A stretch of DNA of 64,000 nt. It comes from Microbispora sp. NBC_01189. Lineage in GTDB: Bacteria; Actinomycetota; Actinomycetes; Streptosporangiales; Streptosporangiaceae. Under the pieces are notes generated by a model, which did not search any database, was not told where the DNA came from, and saw only the letters and a program-made list of their open reading frames with translations. The position numbers were made by a program, and so were the translations under genes. Of the stretch, positions 20,292 to 26,227 are shown piece after piece. Position 1 is the first letter of the stretch. Every line of letters begins with the position of its first letter. The DNA lies in contig NZ_CP108581.1 of assembly GCF_036010665.1 (NCBI RefSeq), positions 3,577,501-3,641,500 of the forward strand, in the 5' to 3' direction.

Positions 20292-20852
20292 ATGCCCGTG
20301 AACGATCTTCCGATGCCGACGGCAGACCCGGTGACGCGGCCGCTGCCCGAGCCGATGCGCTTCGTGCTGAACTGGGGCCGCCGTTACTCCCTCTGGGTGT
20401 TCAACTTCGGCCTGGCGTGCTGCGCGATCGAGTTCGTCGCCACATCGATGAGCAGGCACGACTTCATCCGCCACGGGGTCAGCCCGTTCGCGGACGGCCC
20501 CCGCCGCGCCGACCTGCTGATCGTGTCGGGCACGGTCACCGACAAGATGGCCCCGGCCGTGCGGCGGCTGTACGAGCAGATGCCCGACCCCAAGTACGTC
20601 ATCTCGTTCGGCGCCTGCTCCAACTCGGGCGGGCCGTACTGGGACTCCTACTGCGTGACCAAGGGCGTCGACCAGATCATCCCGGTGGACGTGTACGTCC
20701 CGGGCTGCCCGCCGCGCCCCGAGGCCCTGCTGCACGGGATCACGAAGCTGCAGGAGAAGATCGCCGCCGAGTCAGCCGGGAACCACTCCCTCCCGGCCGC
20801 GGACTGTTCGCTCCCGGCCTCGGGCCGCTCCGTCCCGGGCGCGGAGTCATGA
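20292..20852 (+). CDS. nuoB: NADH-quinone oxidoreductase subunit B-like
   Basis: A 186-residue PSST/NuoB homologue that binds the N2 [4Fe-4S] cluster. All ligands are present: the tandem Cys in LACCAIEF (43-44), the Cys in FGACSNSGG and the Cys in [12 protein letters not shown]. The tail after about residue 160 is low complexity. It couples to the nuoC-like gene by ATGA. NuoD, H, J-N do not follow. Instead the next gene lies on the other strand, so this is a depleted copy of the second NDH-1 cluster that actinomycetes often keep beside korAB and htpX (recollection of synteny). Confidence 0.93.
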
Positions 20853-21373
20853 GCGCGCTGCCGGAGCGGTACGGCTCCCGCGCCGGCGACTCCTTCGGGC
20901 AGGCCGTGCTCGACGTGGAGCCCGGCGAATGGATCGACGCGCTGACGGCCGCGCGCTCGGCCGGGTTCGCGTTCTTCGACTGGCTGACCGCCGTCGACGA
21001 GCCGCCGGAGGCGTTCGGCGTCGTGGCCCACGTGTTCGACCCCGTCGCGTTCGCGCACCTGCTCCTGCGCACCCGGGTGCCGCGCGCCGACCCCCGCCTG
21101 CCGACCGCGACGGGCGTCTTCCGCGGCGCGAACTGGCACGAGCGCGAGACGTACGAGATGTTCGGCGTGGTGTTCGACGGCCATCCGGACCTGCGCCCGC
21201 TGCTGCTGCCGGACGGCTTCGAGGGCCATCCGCTGCGCAAGGACTTCGTGCTGGCCGCCCGGGTCGCGAAGGCGTGGCCGGGAGCCAAAGAGCCGGGCGA
21301 GTCCGGCCAGGGCTCCCCGAGCCGCCGCAGGACACTCCCCCCAGGCGTCCCGCCCGACTGGACGCCCTCCTGA
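20849..21373 (+). CDS. nuoC: NADH-quinone oxidoreductase subunit C-like
   Basis: A 174-residue 30-kDa subunit homologue. The diagnostic segment is present: a [20 protein letters not shown] stretch leading to [16 protein letters not shown]. The N-terminal half is short and divergent ([22 protein letters not shown]). ATG overlaps the nuoB stop. In complex I the subunit forms part of the peripheral arm; here only B, C and a NuoI-like ferredoxin remain in the neighbourhood. It may form a soluble or ferredoxin-linked module, which is inference. Confidence 0.9.
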
Positions 21374-21424: not shown

Positions 21425-21757
21425 TCAGAACGGGCACCTCCACCTCGGCCACGCCGCCGTCGCCTCGTCTTCCCAGGTGGACAGCGTTTTCCCGCGATAG
21501 ACCGTGTCCGCGTGGCCCGAAACCCAAACCGTGAAAGTGGCATCGGGTTCTATCCGCCCGTTGCTCAGCCAGGTGCCAGAAAGCTGACTGTTCGGGATGA
21601 GCCCGGTGTCCAAGAAGCACTGCACCACAGCGACAAGTGCCTCGCCACGGCGGTGAATGTCATCGGGGGAGGAGAGGGCACGTTGCTTGTCCTGCCCGCA
21701 CCCAGCGAGCAGGACAAGGCTGCACATCGCCAGCACCGCACGTTGTGTCGTCGTCAC
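21425..21757 (-). CDS. Small lipoprotein, copy 2 of the WXG-cassette C-terminal domain
   Basis: A 110-residue predicted lipoprotein (VLAMCSLVLLAGC lipobox). The mature part carries the pattern VVQCFLD, W-x2-NGRIEP, VWVSGHADTVYRGKTL, EDEATAAWPRWRCP. The same pattern occurs in the next gene (21846) and at the C-terminus of the large protein at 22196. GTG 21757 follows GAGG by eight bases. Just before it the DNA still reads ATGAGGATGCAGCAGTGA, matching the 3' end of the large gene, so this copy arose by tandem duplication of the gene junction. The function is unknown; immunity, anchoring or partner roles are possible. Confidence 0.75.
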   Translation of the reverse strand: MTTTQRAVLAMCSLVLLAGCGQDKQRALSSPDDIHRRGEALVAVVQCFLDTGLIPNSQLSGTWLSNGRIEPDATFTVWVSGHADTVYRGKTLSTWEDEATAAWPRWRCPF

Positions 21758-21845
21758 TGCTGCATCCTCATGGCGGCCTTCGCTTCCGTGATCCCGCCCG
21801 CCGCCGACCGGCATCGAGCGGCATGGCTCTTCTCGTCGCGGCCCT

Positions 21846-22199
21846 TTATCTGGCCCGTGAGCTGAGGGGGCACTTCCAATCAGGCCACCTCGCCGTCGCC
21901 TCGTCCTCCCACGCCTGCAGCGTCTTCCCCTCGTACACCGTCTCGCGGTGAACGCTCAGCCACTCGACCAGTTCCGCGCTTCCGTGGACCTTGTTTTGTA
22001 CCAGCCAGGGCTGGCCACTGAGGTCCGAGCGGGGGATCCTGTCGTGGTCCACAAGACACTGCACCACCGCCGCGAGCGCCTGGTCGCGCCGCTGTACCTC
22101 ATCGTCCACTGGCGCGCGGGGCTTCTGTTCTCTCGTGCAGGCCGCCAGCGTGAGCGTCAGGAATAGGAGAAGTGCGGTCGTCGCCCACGATGTCCTCAC
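21846..22199 (-). CDS. Small lipoprotein, copy 1 of the WXG-cassette C-terminal domain
   Basis: A 117-residue predicted lipoprotein with signal helix and LTLAAC lipobox. The mature domain (VVQCLVDHDRIP, EWLSVHRETVYEGKTLQAW, DEATARWPDWKCP) is about half identical to the lipoprotein at 21425 and clearly related to residues 598-660 of the upstream large protein. The GTG start overlaps the stop of that gene (GTGA), so it is translated together with it. Both lipoproteins have a Cys near VVQC and a C-terminal W-x-C-P that the large protein lacks, so a disulfide in the exported copies is likely. I do not know the family. Confidence 0.78.
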   Translation of the reverse strand: MRTSWATTALLLFLTLTLAACTREQKPRAPVDDEVQRRDQALAAVVQCLVDHDRIPRSDLSGQPWLVQNKVHGSAELVEWLSVHRETVYEGKTLQAWEDEATARWPDWKCPLSSRAR

Positions 22200-24178
22200 T
22201 GCTGCACCCTCATCGCTTCCTGCGCGGCCCTGATCCATTCGAGCAGGGTTCTGCCACCGTAGGAGGTCTCGGCGTGAGCGCTGAGCCATTCGACGAACTC
22301 GGCGTTGGGCGTGAGCCTGCCGTTCGTGTACCAGGTGACGTGTTCTGGCGGATGAAGCGCGCCCGCGCCGATGAGGCCCTGAACCACCGGCACCTCGATC
22401 TGGAGAACCTGTTTGCGGAAGGCGTCATCATTGTCCTTCAGCGCACGCAACGCGTGATCGGTATCAAACGATTCGCTGGCCAGCGGGCCGAAGCTCCCGG
22501 TCAGGAACTGGGCGATGGTTCCCGGCCCCCACGTGTTCTTGAAGCTGAGCGCACCGAAGCCGCCGGTCAGGATCGCGAAAGCGGTCTGGTTCCGTGTCTC
22601 TTCCTCGTCCCGTAACTGCTCGTCGATGAAATGCCGCTCGTTCTGCAGACGCTGCACGAGGCCGTACAAGCCGGCTACCTCGTGCAGGTAATCCGCATCG
22701 GACGGATCCTTGATGGTCGCCGCGACTGCGATCGCCACGCGAGCGTTGAGGATGCCCTTGAACCGTCCGAACTCTTCCGGCGTCCGCAACGCCTCAGCGA
22801 TCATCGTCTCCAGTTCGCTGCTCTTGACCACGACCGTCCATGGATTCGCGGGATCGTTCTCCTTCGGCAGCGGCTGCGAGGAGAAGTCATGGCCCACCGA
22901 CTTGGCGAAGTCGGGGAGGTAGCGCTCGGCGGTGTAGGTCAGGGCCTGTCGGATTTGGTGGGGAAGCACCGTCTGAGGGTGGAGTTTGGCGAAGGCGGCG
23001 GTGGCTTGGACGATGTGGACGACGGACCAGGCGGATTCCTTGGCGTCGAGGGAGGTGCCGCGCTCGGCGGAGACGGCGGCCTTGAGGAAGGCCCCCACGG
23101 GAGTGGAGAGGTCCATCCGGCCGGCGAGGGGAAGCGCGCCTCCCGGATGCACGTACGAGCTGAGGAACGCGCCAGGATCGAAGCCGGGGGTGTGCCAGGA
23201 GTCGGAGACGAGCATGCGGGCGTACTTCGGGCCGGTGGCGGGGTCGCCGAGCACGTGGCGGGCCGCGATGCCGTTCTCGGCGGCGCGTTGCAGGACGGCC
23301 CCGACGGCGTCGAACTCCGCCATGAGGCGCTGGCGACGGGTGGCGGCGGTGCCGGTCTCCGGCTCGCCGCGATCGGGCGGCCAGATCGCCCTGCCCGCGG
23401 CGCGGGCGTCGAGCATGGTCCGGGTCAGGTCGGCGAGCAGGCGCGGGTCCCACGAACGGCCGTCCGGGCCGTACTTCGCCAGCATGCCGGCCGACCAGGG
23501 GTCGGAACCGCGGGTGATCGCATCGCGGGCCGCGGTGGAGAGCAGGGGACGGCTCTCCTTGCCGGCGCCCACACGCATCCGGCTCGCGGCGGCCAGCGAG
23601 GCGCCGAGCGCCCGCAGAATGCTCACGGTCTCCGCGCCGAACAGCGTGGGTCCGGTGCGGTTGTACAGCATGCGGGCGGCCTGCGAGGCGAGCGGCCCGG
23701 CGCCCGCCCAGAAGGCCTCCTGGTAGTCCTTGTCGGCGAGGTGGCATTCCAGGCGTTCGGCCAACGGCGCCAGGGCGGTACGGGCCTCCTCGGGGTTCTT
23801 GGCCGCGAGGGCGGCGGCCAGCGCCTCGGCGTCACGCCGCCCCTGGTCGCCGCTCTGCCCGGTCGCCTCCCAGTCCAGCCGTACGACCGGGGGGCGGGCG
23901 AAGACCGGCCCGAGCACGCTCGGGGCTCCGGTCATCACATTCCACCCCTGCTGCCTGGCCAGCTCGTACGCCCTCGTCGTACGGGCGTCCATGTCGCGGA
24001 CGTCGTCGAGCGCGGCGGCGATCAGGCGGGACAGCGAGGCGAAGCTGAGTTCACTGCCCCATTTCTGCATCTTCTGCTGAATCGCGGGGCCCTGCCGGGC
24101 GAGCATGTCGTGAAGCCGTTCGAGCCGTCTGGTCAGTTCTTTCAGATTCTCGGGATCGACCCCGACGAAATCCCCCAT
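22196..24178 (-). CDS. Large WXG-associated protein with C-terminal domain shared by two lipoproteins
   Basis: A 660-residue soluble, largely helical protein of no recognised enzyme family. ATG 24178 has AAGGGA upstream; the upstream reading frame is not coding-like. Residues 1-90 look like a helical WXG/ESX-type hairpin (VDPENLKELTRRLERL). The middle (about 100-570) is Ala-rich and helical without motifs. Residues 598-660 repeat in the two downstream lipoproteins (NGRLTPNAEFVEWLSAHAET and GGRTLLEW). It follows a WXG100-like gene, so it may be a large type VII-type substrate or scaffold. It resembles actinobacterial proteins annotated only as hypothetical; a toxin role is not shown. Confidence 0.72.
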   Translation of the reverse strand: MGDFVGVDPENLKELTRRLERLHDMLARQGPAIQQKMQKWGSELSFASLSRLIAAALDDVRDMDARTTRAYELARQQGWNVMTGAPSVLGPVFARPPVVRLDWEATGQSGDQGRRDAEALAAALAAKNPEEARTALAPLAERLECHLADKDYQEAFWAGAGPLASQAARMLYNRTGPTLFGAETVSILRALGASLAAASRMRVGAGKESRPLLSTAARDAITRGSDPWSAGMLAKYGPDGRSWDPRLLADLTRTMLDARAAGRAIWPPDRGEPETGTAATRRQRLMAEFDAVGAVLQRAAENGIAARHVLGDPATGPKYARMLVSDSWHTPGFDPGAFLSSYVHPGGALPLAGRMDLSTPVGAFLKAAVSAERGTSLDAKESAWSVVHIVQATAAFAKLHPQTVLPHQIRQALTYTAERYLPDFAKSVGHDFSSQPLPKENDPANPWTVVVKSSELETMIAEALRTPEEFGRFKGILNARVAIAVAATIKDPSDADYLHEVAGLYGLVQRLQNERHFIDEQLRDEEETRNQTAFAILTGGFGALSFKNTWGPGTIAQFLTGSFGPLASESFDTDHALRALKDNDDAFRKQVLQIEVPVVQGLIGAGALHPPEHVTWYTNGRLTPNAEFVEWLSAHAETSYGGRTLLEWIRAAQEAMRVQQ

Positions 24179-24215: not shown

Positions 24216-24476
24216 CTACGAGGCGGCGGTCCGGCGTTCCGCCTCCTCGGCACGGGCGACGAGATGCGACTGCTCGCTGAGAACGGCGTCGAGTAGCGCG
24301 CTGAGCTGGGCCTTGCGCGCGTGCCAACCGGCGGCCCACAGATCCGCCGCCGTACCCTGCCAGGTGTGGTCGCCGAACATCGGGGGCACGGCGCCGAGCG
24401 CATCGAGAATGTCCCGCGCGGCCGTGGCGGCCGCGGCCATGTCCGCTCTGCACTCGGCGATTTCCGGCGCCGTCAT
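24216..24476 (-). CDS. WXG100-like small helical protein
   Basis: An 86-residue protein predicted as a two-helix hairpin with W-x-G in DHTWQGTAADLWAAGW near the middle, the hallmark of ESX/type VII proteins. ATG 24476 follows GGAGGGA. It precedes the large protein at 22196 by 37 bases in the same direction, the usual order of a WXG100 partner and its large substrate. No EccC-type ATPase or other secretion gene lies in the window. Confidence 0.75.
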   Translation of the reverse strand: MTAPEIAECRADMAAAATAARDILDALGAVPPMFGDHTWQGTAADLWAAGWHARKAQLSALLDAVLSEQSHLVARAEEAERRTAAS

Positions 24477-24585: not shown

Positions 24586-25326
24586 CTATGGGAGAAAGAC
24601 GCCGTATTCGGATAGCTCGGTGGTGAGGTGGGGAGGCAGGGCCGCGGCGGCGGAGACGTCCTCGGCCGAGACGAAACTCCCCACCTGCTCCCGGACCCGT
24701 ACGACCTGGTCGGCGAGGGCGAGGGTCATCCCCGGCAGGCTCGCGATGAGCGGCGCGGGAGCGCGGTTGAGATCGACCAGGCCGCCGTCGTCGTACTGCC
24801 GGGGCAGGTCGGGCCGTCCGATCCGCAGTTCGCGAGCCATCGCGGGATCCCGCTCGGCCAGCTCCCTCGCCTGCTGCCGCAGCATGCGCCGGTGCTGCGC
24901 GACCGCCAGCGCGTGCTCGTTGAGCGTGGCGGGCTGCGAGGCGAGGCCGAACACCCGCTTCCTGATCAGGAAGGAGTGCAGGGTCCCGCCGAGCCAGGGC
25001 CCGAGCGCGCCGAAGATGATGGCGATGGTCGCCGGCCACGGGGTGGGGACGCCGTCGTAGACCACGCTGTTCCAGATCCACCCCGTCGTCAGTACGGCGT
25101 ATCCGGCGGCGGACAGGCCGAGCGCGACGCTGCGGCCTCGGATGGCGGCGTACAGCATCGAGAAGGGAGTGCCGGCTCCGCAGGTGAAGAGCGGGACGAG
25201 CGCCCAGAACACGCTGGCCGTGCCGGACGGCGGTTGCGGTGGCGGCGGCGGATAGCCCCCGTAGTACGGATTCGGTGGTCCCTGTGGTGCGGGAGGGTAG
25301 CCTCCCGGTCCCCCATAGCCGTTCAT
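24586..25326 (-). CDS. Pro-rich membrane protein with C-terminal helix-hairpin-helix
   Basis: A 246-residue protein. A Gly/Tyr/Pro-rich cytosolic head (about 1-36) is followed by three to four hydrophobic helices (about 38-125), a charged linker and a C-terminal helix-hairpin-helix of ComEA/T2SK type (VDLNRAPAPLIASLPGM, then VRVREQVGSFVSAEDV). Such domains bind DNA or act as a protein fold in membrane proteins of actinomycetes. ATG 25326 is taken as start because the head PPAPQGPPNPYYGG is typical of DUF-type membrane proteins. It is on the same strand as, and upstream of, the WXG cassette, about 110 bases away. Function unknown. Confidence 0.75.
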   Translation of the reverse strand: MNGYGGPGGYPPAPQGPPNPYYGGYPPPPPQPPSGTASVFWALVPLFTCGAGTPFSMLYAAIRGRSVALGLSAAGYAVLTTGWIWNSVVYDGVPTPWPATIAIIFGALGPWLGGTLHSFLIRKRVFGLASQPATLNEHALAVAQHRRMLRQQARELAERDPAMARELRIGRPDLPRQYDDGGLVDLNRAPAPLIASLPGMTLALADQVVRVREQVGSFVSAEDVSAAAALPPHLTTELSEYGVFLP

Positions 25327-25531
25327 TGTCCAGACGATACGGATTCGTCGCCGTTTGTGCGTGCCCTTCTTCCCCACATTCTGTGGACAACCTTGGGGAC
25401 GAGGCTGTGGACGATGTGGAAAACCCGAGGGGGGAGCCGCGTGTCCGGCTGCCGTCCACAGCGCTCGATACGGTGCGCGATGATGAGGTATGGCGTGCGT
25501 ACCAGGAGAAGGACCGGGCGGGGACCCGGCC

Positions 25532-26227
25532 GTGATCATGCGGCAGGCGCCGCGCGAGCCGGAGCCGGGGCAGTATCCGGAGGTCCGCCCCGACCTGCCC
25601 GCGCGCAGCCGGGGCGTGATCGCCCTGGTGGAGGAGAACTGCACCGTCTGCATGCTCTGCGCGCGTGAGTGCCCCGACTGGTGCATCTACATCGACTCGC
25701 ACAAGGAGACGGTCCCGGCGCCGGAGGGCGGCCGCCCGCGTGCCCGCAACGTGCTCGACCGCTTCGCGATCGACTTCTCGCTGTGCATGTACTGCGGCAT
25801 CTGCGTCGAGGTGTGCCCGTTCGACGCGCTGTTCTGGTCGCCGGAGTTCGAGTACGCCGAGTACGACGTCCGCGACCTCCTGCACGAGAAGGACCGGCTC
25901 GGCGAGTGGGTCGCGACCGTACCCCCGCCGCCCGCGCCCGAGATCGGCGCGGAGCCGCCCAAGGGACCGACCAAGGGATCGTCGGCGGGCGCGCGCGGCC
26001 CGGCGGCGGCCGGTCCGGTCAAGGAGCCGGCGAAGGGCCCCGGGACCCAACCTGTGCCCGCGCGCGGGACCGAACCCGCGACCGGCGCGGCGGGCGGGCC
26101 CGGGAACCGCCCTCGGCGCGAGCCGCCGCGCGCCATGCGCGACGTCCGCTCCATCCGGCCGCCCGGCGCACTGCCGAAGAAGCCCCAGCGGCCCGGCGAG
26201 ACGGGTGGTCCCGAGGGGGAGAGCTGA
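25532..26227 (+). CDS. nuoI: NuoI-like 2x[4Fe-4S] ferredoxin subunit
   Basis: A 231-residue protein with two intact 4Fe-4S motifs, [14 protein letters not shown] and [14 protein letters not shown], plus the NuoI context [15 protein letters not shown]. The last 90 residues are a Pro/Lys/Gly-rich tail not found in ordinary NuoI. The start is uncertain: GTG 25532, ATG 25538 or ATG 25490. It belongs with nuoB and nuoC but is separated from them by 4 kb of opposite-strand genes. A role in passing electrons from ferredoxin or KorAB is inferred. Confidence 0.88.

Follow-up and report, generated by a model that had tools for sequence, protein, structure and literature searches.

Here we describe a gene cassette of Microbispora sp. 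NBC_01189 (Streptosporangiaceae) that is probably a polymorphic effector cassette, encoding what would be an antibacterial toxin exported by a type VII secretion system (T7SS) together with a cognate immunity lipoprotein, a reading drawn from sequence comparison and structure prediction. The window analysed is a stretch of 64,000 nucleotides (contig NZ_CP108581.1, positions 3,577,501 to 3,641,500), to which coordinates refer unless a locus is named. The genes of the cassette, a small WXG-like gene, a large gene and two lipoprotein genes, all lie on its minus strand. The large gene (22196..24178) encodes an effector-like protein of 660 residues with a constant N-terminus and an exchangeable C-terminus; its stop overlaps by 4 nt (GTGA) the GTG start of lipoprotein 1 (LP1, 21846..22199), which is followed by lipoprotein 2 (LP2, 21425..21757). 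The named relatives belong to Microbispora and other Streptosporangiaceae; genomes, loci and families are otherwise designated by G, L and f numbers.

In 12 Microbispora genomes, residues 1-400 of the large protein are 56-97% identical between strains, identity breaks at residues about 400-430, and the C-terminal ~230 residues fall into allelic classes. This C-module covers residues about 430-660 in the window (22199..22891), where it is of class A. The same class is found in M. siamensis, M. hainanensis and, more distantly, G001; class B in M. triticiradicis (L034), M. rosea and G010; class C in M. catharanthi; class D in H13382 and G002; and class E in H11081 and G008 as well as at two loci of G048, a genome of another genus (the class names were given after the identities had been looked at). 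Pairs of different class (55) have a median identity of 85% in the N-terminal part and 54% (36-59) in the C-module, and the 11 pairs of the same class are 64-92% identical in the latter. The C class does not track the N-terminus: L038 and L041 are 96% identical in the N-terminal part and 48% in the C-module, while for L040 and L043 the values are 64% and 69%. At the DNA level, L038 and L041 are separated by a block of ~1 kb at 51-68% identity, flanked on both sides by DNA at 86-99%; it begins at nt 1200-1300 of the large gene and extends through the lipoprotein gene, beyond which identity recovers. Similar pictures were obtained for the window and L034, L033 and L035, and L032 and L037. The C-module and the lipoprotein are swapped as one block. 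Consistent with this, lipoprotein distances in the 12 genomes follow the distances of residues 430-590 (Mantel r 0.862, p 0.0001) and not those of residues 1-400 (r -0.009, p 0.41); when three further loci of other genera are added, r becomes 0.850 for the C-terminal and 0.276 (p 0.06) for the N-terminal distances. The polymorphism that an earlier, sequence-only reading of this DNA had proposed for the cassette is thus borne out by the C classes and the block exchange.

The lipoproteins are homologous to the end of the large protein. Profile-profile comparison (hhalign) aligned residues 594-655 (22214..22399) with the lipoproteins at a probability of 98.6 and an E-value of 1e-15, and in BLOSUM62 local alignments the score of the end of the large protein was 92 with mature LP1 and 116 with mature LP2, compared with at most 46 and 52, respectively, in 2000 shuffles. 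A search of the genome itself with the large protein returned three places only, namely the large gene, LP1 and LP2. The sequence-only reading had recognised one pattern in the three sequences and had taken an unrelated outcome of a profile search as the result that would speak against it; the profile search instead relates them, and an exported partner homologous to the C-terminus of the substrate, as it claimed, does exist. Two cysteines are invariant in the lipoproteins (17/17 rows) and probably form a single disulfide; where the lipoproteins have the first of them the large protein has an invariant glycine, G601 (15/15 rows), and its aligned part stops before the position of the second. 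The AlphaFold model of LP1 has a mean predicted local distance difference test score (pLDDT) of 82, and the last 70 residues of the large protein (pLDDT 72-87) have the same order of elements. The earlier claim went further and derived the partner from that C-terminus: the homology stands, and we infer the direction, which gains plausibility from nine genomes of two other families in which the large protein ends in this domain and no lipoprotein was detected.

A constant targeting part, an exchangeable C-module, a class-matched downstream gene, displaced copies of that gene and absence of the cassette from some genomes are together the marks of polymorphic toxin-immunity systems, which is the basis of the reading proposed here. 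The putative mechanism would run as follows. The WXG100-like hairpin of the constant N-terminal part and the small WXG-like partner would form a probable type VII export signal, and the C-terminal ~230 residues would be the part that acts and is exchanged. Carried out by the general export route and anchored on the outer face of the membrane, probably with its one disulfide, the lipoprotein would shield the producer from C-modules of its own class. Recombination at a fixed chromosomal site would let strains swap C-module and lipoprotein as one block, and old lipoproteins (LP2 and the decayed copies in M. sp. H11081) would stay as orphan immunity genes. The likeliest guess is that the C-module acts outside the membrane, because of the expected place of the lipoprotein. 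LP1 is taken as the cognate partner of the C-module of the window: it has the two invariant cysteines and is 80 and 79% identical to the lipoproteins of the class-A genomes at L032 and L033, and 88% to that of L049.

The 18-mer ATGAGGGTGCAGCAGTGA at 22196-22213 occurs a second time, with one mismatch, at 21754-21771, these being the only 2 matches with up to three mismatches in the window (0.04 expected); the near-copy of the last codons of the large gene that had been noted at the start of LP2 is therefore real. Since large genes of several species share this 18-mer as their conserved 3' terminus, the copy alone is no proof that the neighbouring junction was duplicated. Over 110 nt, the start region of LP2 matches the class-B junction of M. 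triticiradicis (L034) at 86/110 positions, that of G010 at 82/110 and that of M. rosea at 76/110, but the LP1 junction of the window itself at only 50/110, and 35 of the 40 nt before the LP2 start are identical to the end of the class-B gene at L034. By the same likeness to L034, the segment 21754..21795 is recognised as an in-frame remnant of the 3' terminus of a different large-gene allele, with GITEAKAAMRMQQ followed by a stop. The 110-nt comparison thus rejects an array grown by tandem duplication of the adjacent junction, as had been proposed, since the start of LP2 is nearer to the allele of another species. Because its start region is class-B-like, LP2 is best read as the relic of a displaced class-B module, the putative leftover of a cassette that had lost its large-gene tail to displacement. 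A loose end of this scenario is the mature part, which is 47% identical to mature LP1 and nearest to the second lipoprotein of L041 (L041b, 60%) and to that of L037 (58%), with only 49-50% to class B; this points to mosaics among the lipoproteins.

LP2 is not the only candidate for an orphan partner of a displaced module. Decayed additional lipoproteins occur in M. sp. H11081 (L040), and in G008 (L041) the second lipoprotein is of a class that is not its own. A different case is G011, whose large gene is divided between two contig ends, carries a frame change and is missing most of its length, with an intact lipoprotein frame. In G010 (L036:7655-9634), an in-frame TAG occurs near the start of the large gene, again with an intact lipoprotein frame. 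A lone lipoprotein in G692 (L182:4934-5404) lies downstream of a gene that by eye resembles glucose-1-phosphate adenylyltransferase, in a genome with no large-protein match.

Within a cassette, the C-terminal domain (C-domain) and the lipoprotein resemble each other more than they resemble those of other cassettes: across 11 representatives, the C-domain is 39.7% identical to the lipoprotein of its own cassette and 30.6% to the others (p 5e-5). For classes A-D alone the resemblance falls short of significance (p 0.126 for identity and 0.085 for BLOSUM scores), hence the signal comes from the deeper classes. In nine cassettes, residues common to the two proteins use the same codon in 54/110 cases (6/15, 5/13, 8/13, 6/13, 5/11, 4/12, 5/10, 7/9 and 8/14 per cassette), and codon usage of the C-module predicts 56.2. 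With the count at expectation, no recent DNA copying is seen and recent gene conversion between C-domain and lipoprotein is unsupported, which favours a resemblance maintained in the proteins, or else an old copying event whose traces have since been erased. In the tree, the lipoproteins of L046 and L048 group with their own large proteins, with long branches involved; separate origins of these lipoproteins were not retained as a single lipoprotein clade is not rejected (approximately unbiased test, p 0.184). A striking resemblance was also seen in G025 (L048:6343-8995), whose large protein and lipoprotein share an insertion-like stretch (GTQQGWYQ and GTKDGWYK) seen in none of the Microbispora rows.

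Because resemblance within the cassette goes together with no sign of recent DNA copying, it is tempting to consider immunity by self-mimicry, which we regard as a serious possibility though somewhat short of probable. The lipoprotein would then be a membrane-tethered, disulfide-stabilised copy of the C-terminal domain of the effector, and might neutralise it either by replacing that domain on the core of the C-module or by pairing with it. The two copies would co-vary at the protein level rather than by DNA copying, and each new C-module would carry the template of its own antidote; the cassettes would represent a family of antibacterial T7SS effectors, found in Actinomycetes, whose toxin and immunity protein have a common ancestry. 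Pairing of homologous domains could also serve another end, the lipoprotein being a surface anchor or receptor that keeps the large protein at the cell surface after its secretion, as has been suggested for MafA and MafB, with no immunity involved. A lipoprotein expected outside the membrane, a domain homologous to the end of the substrate and the greater sharing of residues within cassettes all suit an anchor, and MafA is likewise a lipobox protein encoded beside polymorphic toxins (PMC3482391). We nevertheless consider it unlikely: MafA is reported not to be polymorphic, whereas the lipoprotein of our cassette tracks the class of the C-module; extra and decayed lipoproteins, and persistence of the lipoprotein beside a broken large gene, fit immunity better; and nine genomes have the large protein with no lipoprotein detected.

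Several features suggest a link between the cassette and type VII secretion. The AlphaFold model of the large protein begins with a WXG100-like two-helix hairpin (residues 9-76, 23951..24154; helices 9-40 and 46-76, turn near W40-G41), at moderate confidence (mean pLDDT 55-80 per ten residues over residues 11-80). Directly upstream of the large gene, the small partner (24216..24476) is a helical protein of 86 aa with a TWQG motif, and a similar small gene adjoins the large gene in several Microbispora loci, in L046, in L048 and at five loci from other families. Pfam WXG100 gave no match for either window protein; two relatives match it only weakly, below the cut-off (E 0.03 and 0.06), L094 among them (PF06013, E 0.063). 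A gene for an ATPase containing two FtsK/SpoIIIE stretches (E 6e-60 to 5e-63) is found no more than a few kb from the large gene in L046, L048, L171 and L174. The L046 ATPase reaches 533 bits with EssC TIGR03928 (cut-off 778) and 419 with EccCa (cut-off 509), below both cut-offs; it is therefore EccC/EssC-like and not a curated equivalog. The genome of NBC_01189 itself has such an ATPase gene, with an adjoining WXG100 gene, at about C1:4.14 Mb (about 4142070-4147058). Besides the hairpin and the last 70 residues, residues about 380-520 are among the better parts of the large-protein model (pLDDT 60-85). None of the four cassette proteins reaches a Pfam or NCBIfam cut-off, and at E<=10 Pfam has no match for the large protein or its WXG-like partner. 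The few weak database matches of the lipoproteins, none better than E 0.03, fall for the most part on the signal-peptide ends of other lipoproteins. Searches of the PDB gave no sequence match and, for the models of LP1 and the large protein, no fold match at E<=0.001. Pore formation, considered from hydropathy, was not retained, as a 19-residue window exceeding 1.6 was present in only 2 of the 24 proteins.

Other observations weigh against a toxin with its cognate immunity protein. Many polymorphic toxins have unrelated C-terminal domains, unlike the C-module classes compared here, which are homologous to one another. The cassette lies ~540 kb from the T7SS ATPase gene of its own genome. The large protein matches no Pfam, NCBIfam or PDB sequence, has no clear transmembrane segment, and is poorly modelled overall (mean pLDDT 54). 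The lipoprotein, moreover, was not detected in part of the distribution. Among 341 genomes of the family, 35 match the large protein, 21 the lipoprotein and 20 both, the odd one being G692 with its lone weak match; no lipoprotein was detected in 15 of the 35, in a survey that scored 15 first-look candidates per genome, so that misses are possible. Three of these 15 (G445, G454 and G455) match up to residue 630-638 and so have a C-domain-like end with no detected lipoprotein, as judged for G455 from the match range only. Of the 394 genomes of the class that were surveyed, 15 match the large protein, nine of them in families f20/f21 and one in f28; in the nine f20/f21 genomes, all with a large gene and a C-domain-like end, the lipoprotein was detected in none. 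Finally, one of the two large genes of G482 (L175) has no adjoining lipoprotein. Many genomes with the large protein and no lipoprotein was the pattern that the sequence-only reading had set against itself, and the survey finds it in part, in these 15 of 35 and in all nine from the other families.

Seven of the 15 family genomes with no detected lipoprotein have lost the C-module, the large gene ending between model residues 323 and 570; six of them are of one genus (G045, G585, G586, G588, G591 and G592), whose member G587 has a full large gene and a lipoprotein, and the seventh is G039. In two others, G016 and G582, the C-terminal part is a different one; G612 and G636 show only distant similarity to the large protein, and the match in G458 is a contig-edge piece. 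The relative in G016 (L051:7040-8653) matches residues 3-253 only, and its different C-terminal part is perhaps another module on the same N-terminus. In G039 (L050:5499-11675), two distant relatives of the large protein, frames of 822 and 893 aa, lie in tandem, and the lipoprotein has no match in that genome. In the five of the nine f20/f21 genomes for which the genes were listed, the large gene is followed by a WXG-like gene; the occurrence there of large gene and WXG gene with no lipoprotein suggests that effector and WXG partner are the older unit and that the lipoprotein is a later addition within Streptosporangiaceae. Two Microbispora genomes (G004 and G014) have no large-protein match, and a search of both for the empty site gave no match to the flanking helix-hairpin-helix gene either.

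The same distribution bears on a role of the lipoprotein as a secretion or folding helper, which would receive the exported C-module outside the membrane and be needed for its folding or release, block exchange only keeping fitting partners together. Co-variation and the GTGA overlap suit any obligate partner, but the nine f20/f21 genomes and three f1 genomes (G445, G454 and G455) keep the C-domain with no detected lipoprotein, and the extra lipoprotein copies are left with no role, so that we give this explanation even less credit than an anchor. Least probable of all is a reading with no antagonism, in which a T7SS substrate conserved in actinobacteria has a housekeeping function at the surface, its C-terminus diversified by phage or other pressure and the lipoproteins being diverged duplicates: no toxin domain is recognised and the family occurs in several actinobacterial families, but the sharp exchange of a block that includes the downstream gene, the non-detection of the lipoprotein where the C-module is lost and the missing match in G004 and G014 all go against it.

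As to the surroundings, complex I-like genes (NuoB, NuoC and NuoI by eye) flank the cassette at 20417-21373 and 25490-26227. Genes like NuoH, J, K, L and A surround the same cassette in L032, L033 and L035 and are not adjacent to that of the window, the sole NuoH match of the genome being ~85 kb away from the start of the window. Adjoining the cassette, here and in several other Microbispora loci, is a helix-hairpin-helix protein (HHH_3, E 1e-8; 24589-25302).

If an effector with a cognate immunity lipoprotein is the correct reading, soil actinomycetes possess kin-discrimination cassettes of the T7SS kind with immunity lipoproteins, and the lipoprotein would be a case of an immunity protein arisen from the C-terminal domain of its own effector. 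The natural classes A to E, some in near-identical surroundings (L038 and L041), would then be ready-made specificity swaps.

The closest functional parallel may be TslA/TilA of Staphylococcus aureus, a T7SSb lipase whose immunity lipoprotein TilA, a DUF576 protein, is outside the membrane (PMC10730906). The likeness extends to small helical partners and a variable number of lipoprotein paralogues, although TslA has the reverse domain order, and the window cassette proteins have no lipase or DUF576 match. The cassette may work like TslA/TilA, with no detected sequence relationship. Polymorphism is likewise found among T7SSb toxins in Bacillota (LXG types and others; immunity genes for EsaG, TsaI or TipC), which have tandem strings of immunity genes, some of which recombine (PMC9484751); here the partner is a lipoprotein, the C-modules are all related and the family is actinobacterial, and the large protein of the window has no Pfam match to an LXG domain at E<=10. 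DUF6571 (PF20211) is reached by L089, a relative from another family (residues 4-153, 29.6 bits for a cut-off of 27), and by the window protein not at all at E<=10; the word DUF6571 was not found in the open-access literature searched. MafB of Neisseria is a polymorphic toxin encoded with the lipobox protein MafA, which lies upstream and reportedly lacks polymorphism, while our lipoprotein is downstream and follows the class; the same source notes Imm65, a lipoprotein immunity family, as exceptional (PMC3482391). Titles and abstract beginnings in the open-access literature yielded neither a description of this cassette nor an immunity protein homologous to the C-terminus of its own effector, and the portion of PMC10730906 considered here says nothing of a resemblance of TilA to TslA. 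What appears to distinguish the Microbispora cassette from these precedents is the homology of its putative immunity lipoprotein with the C-terminus of the very effector that it would neutralise.

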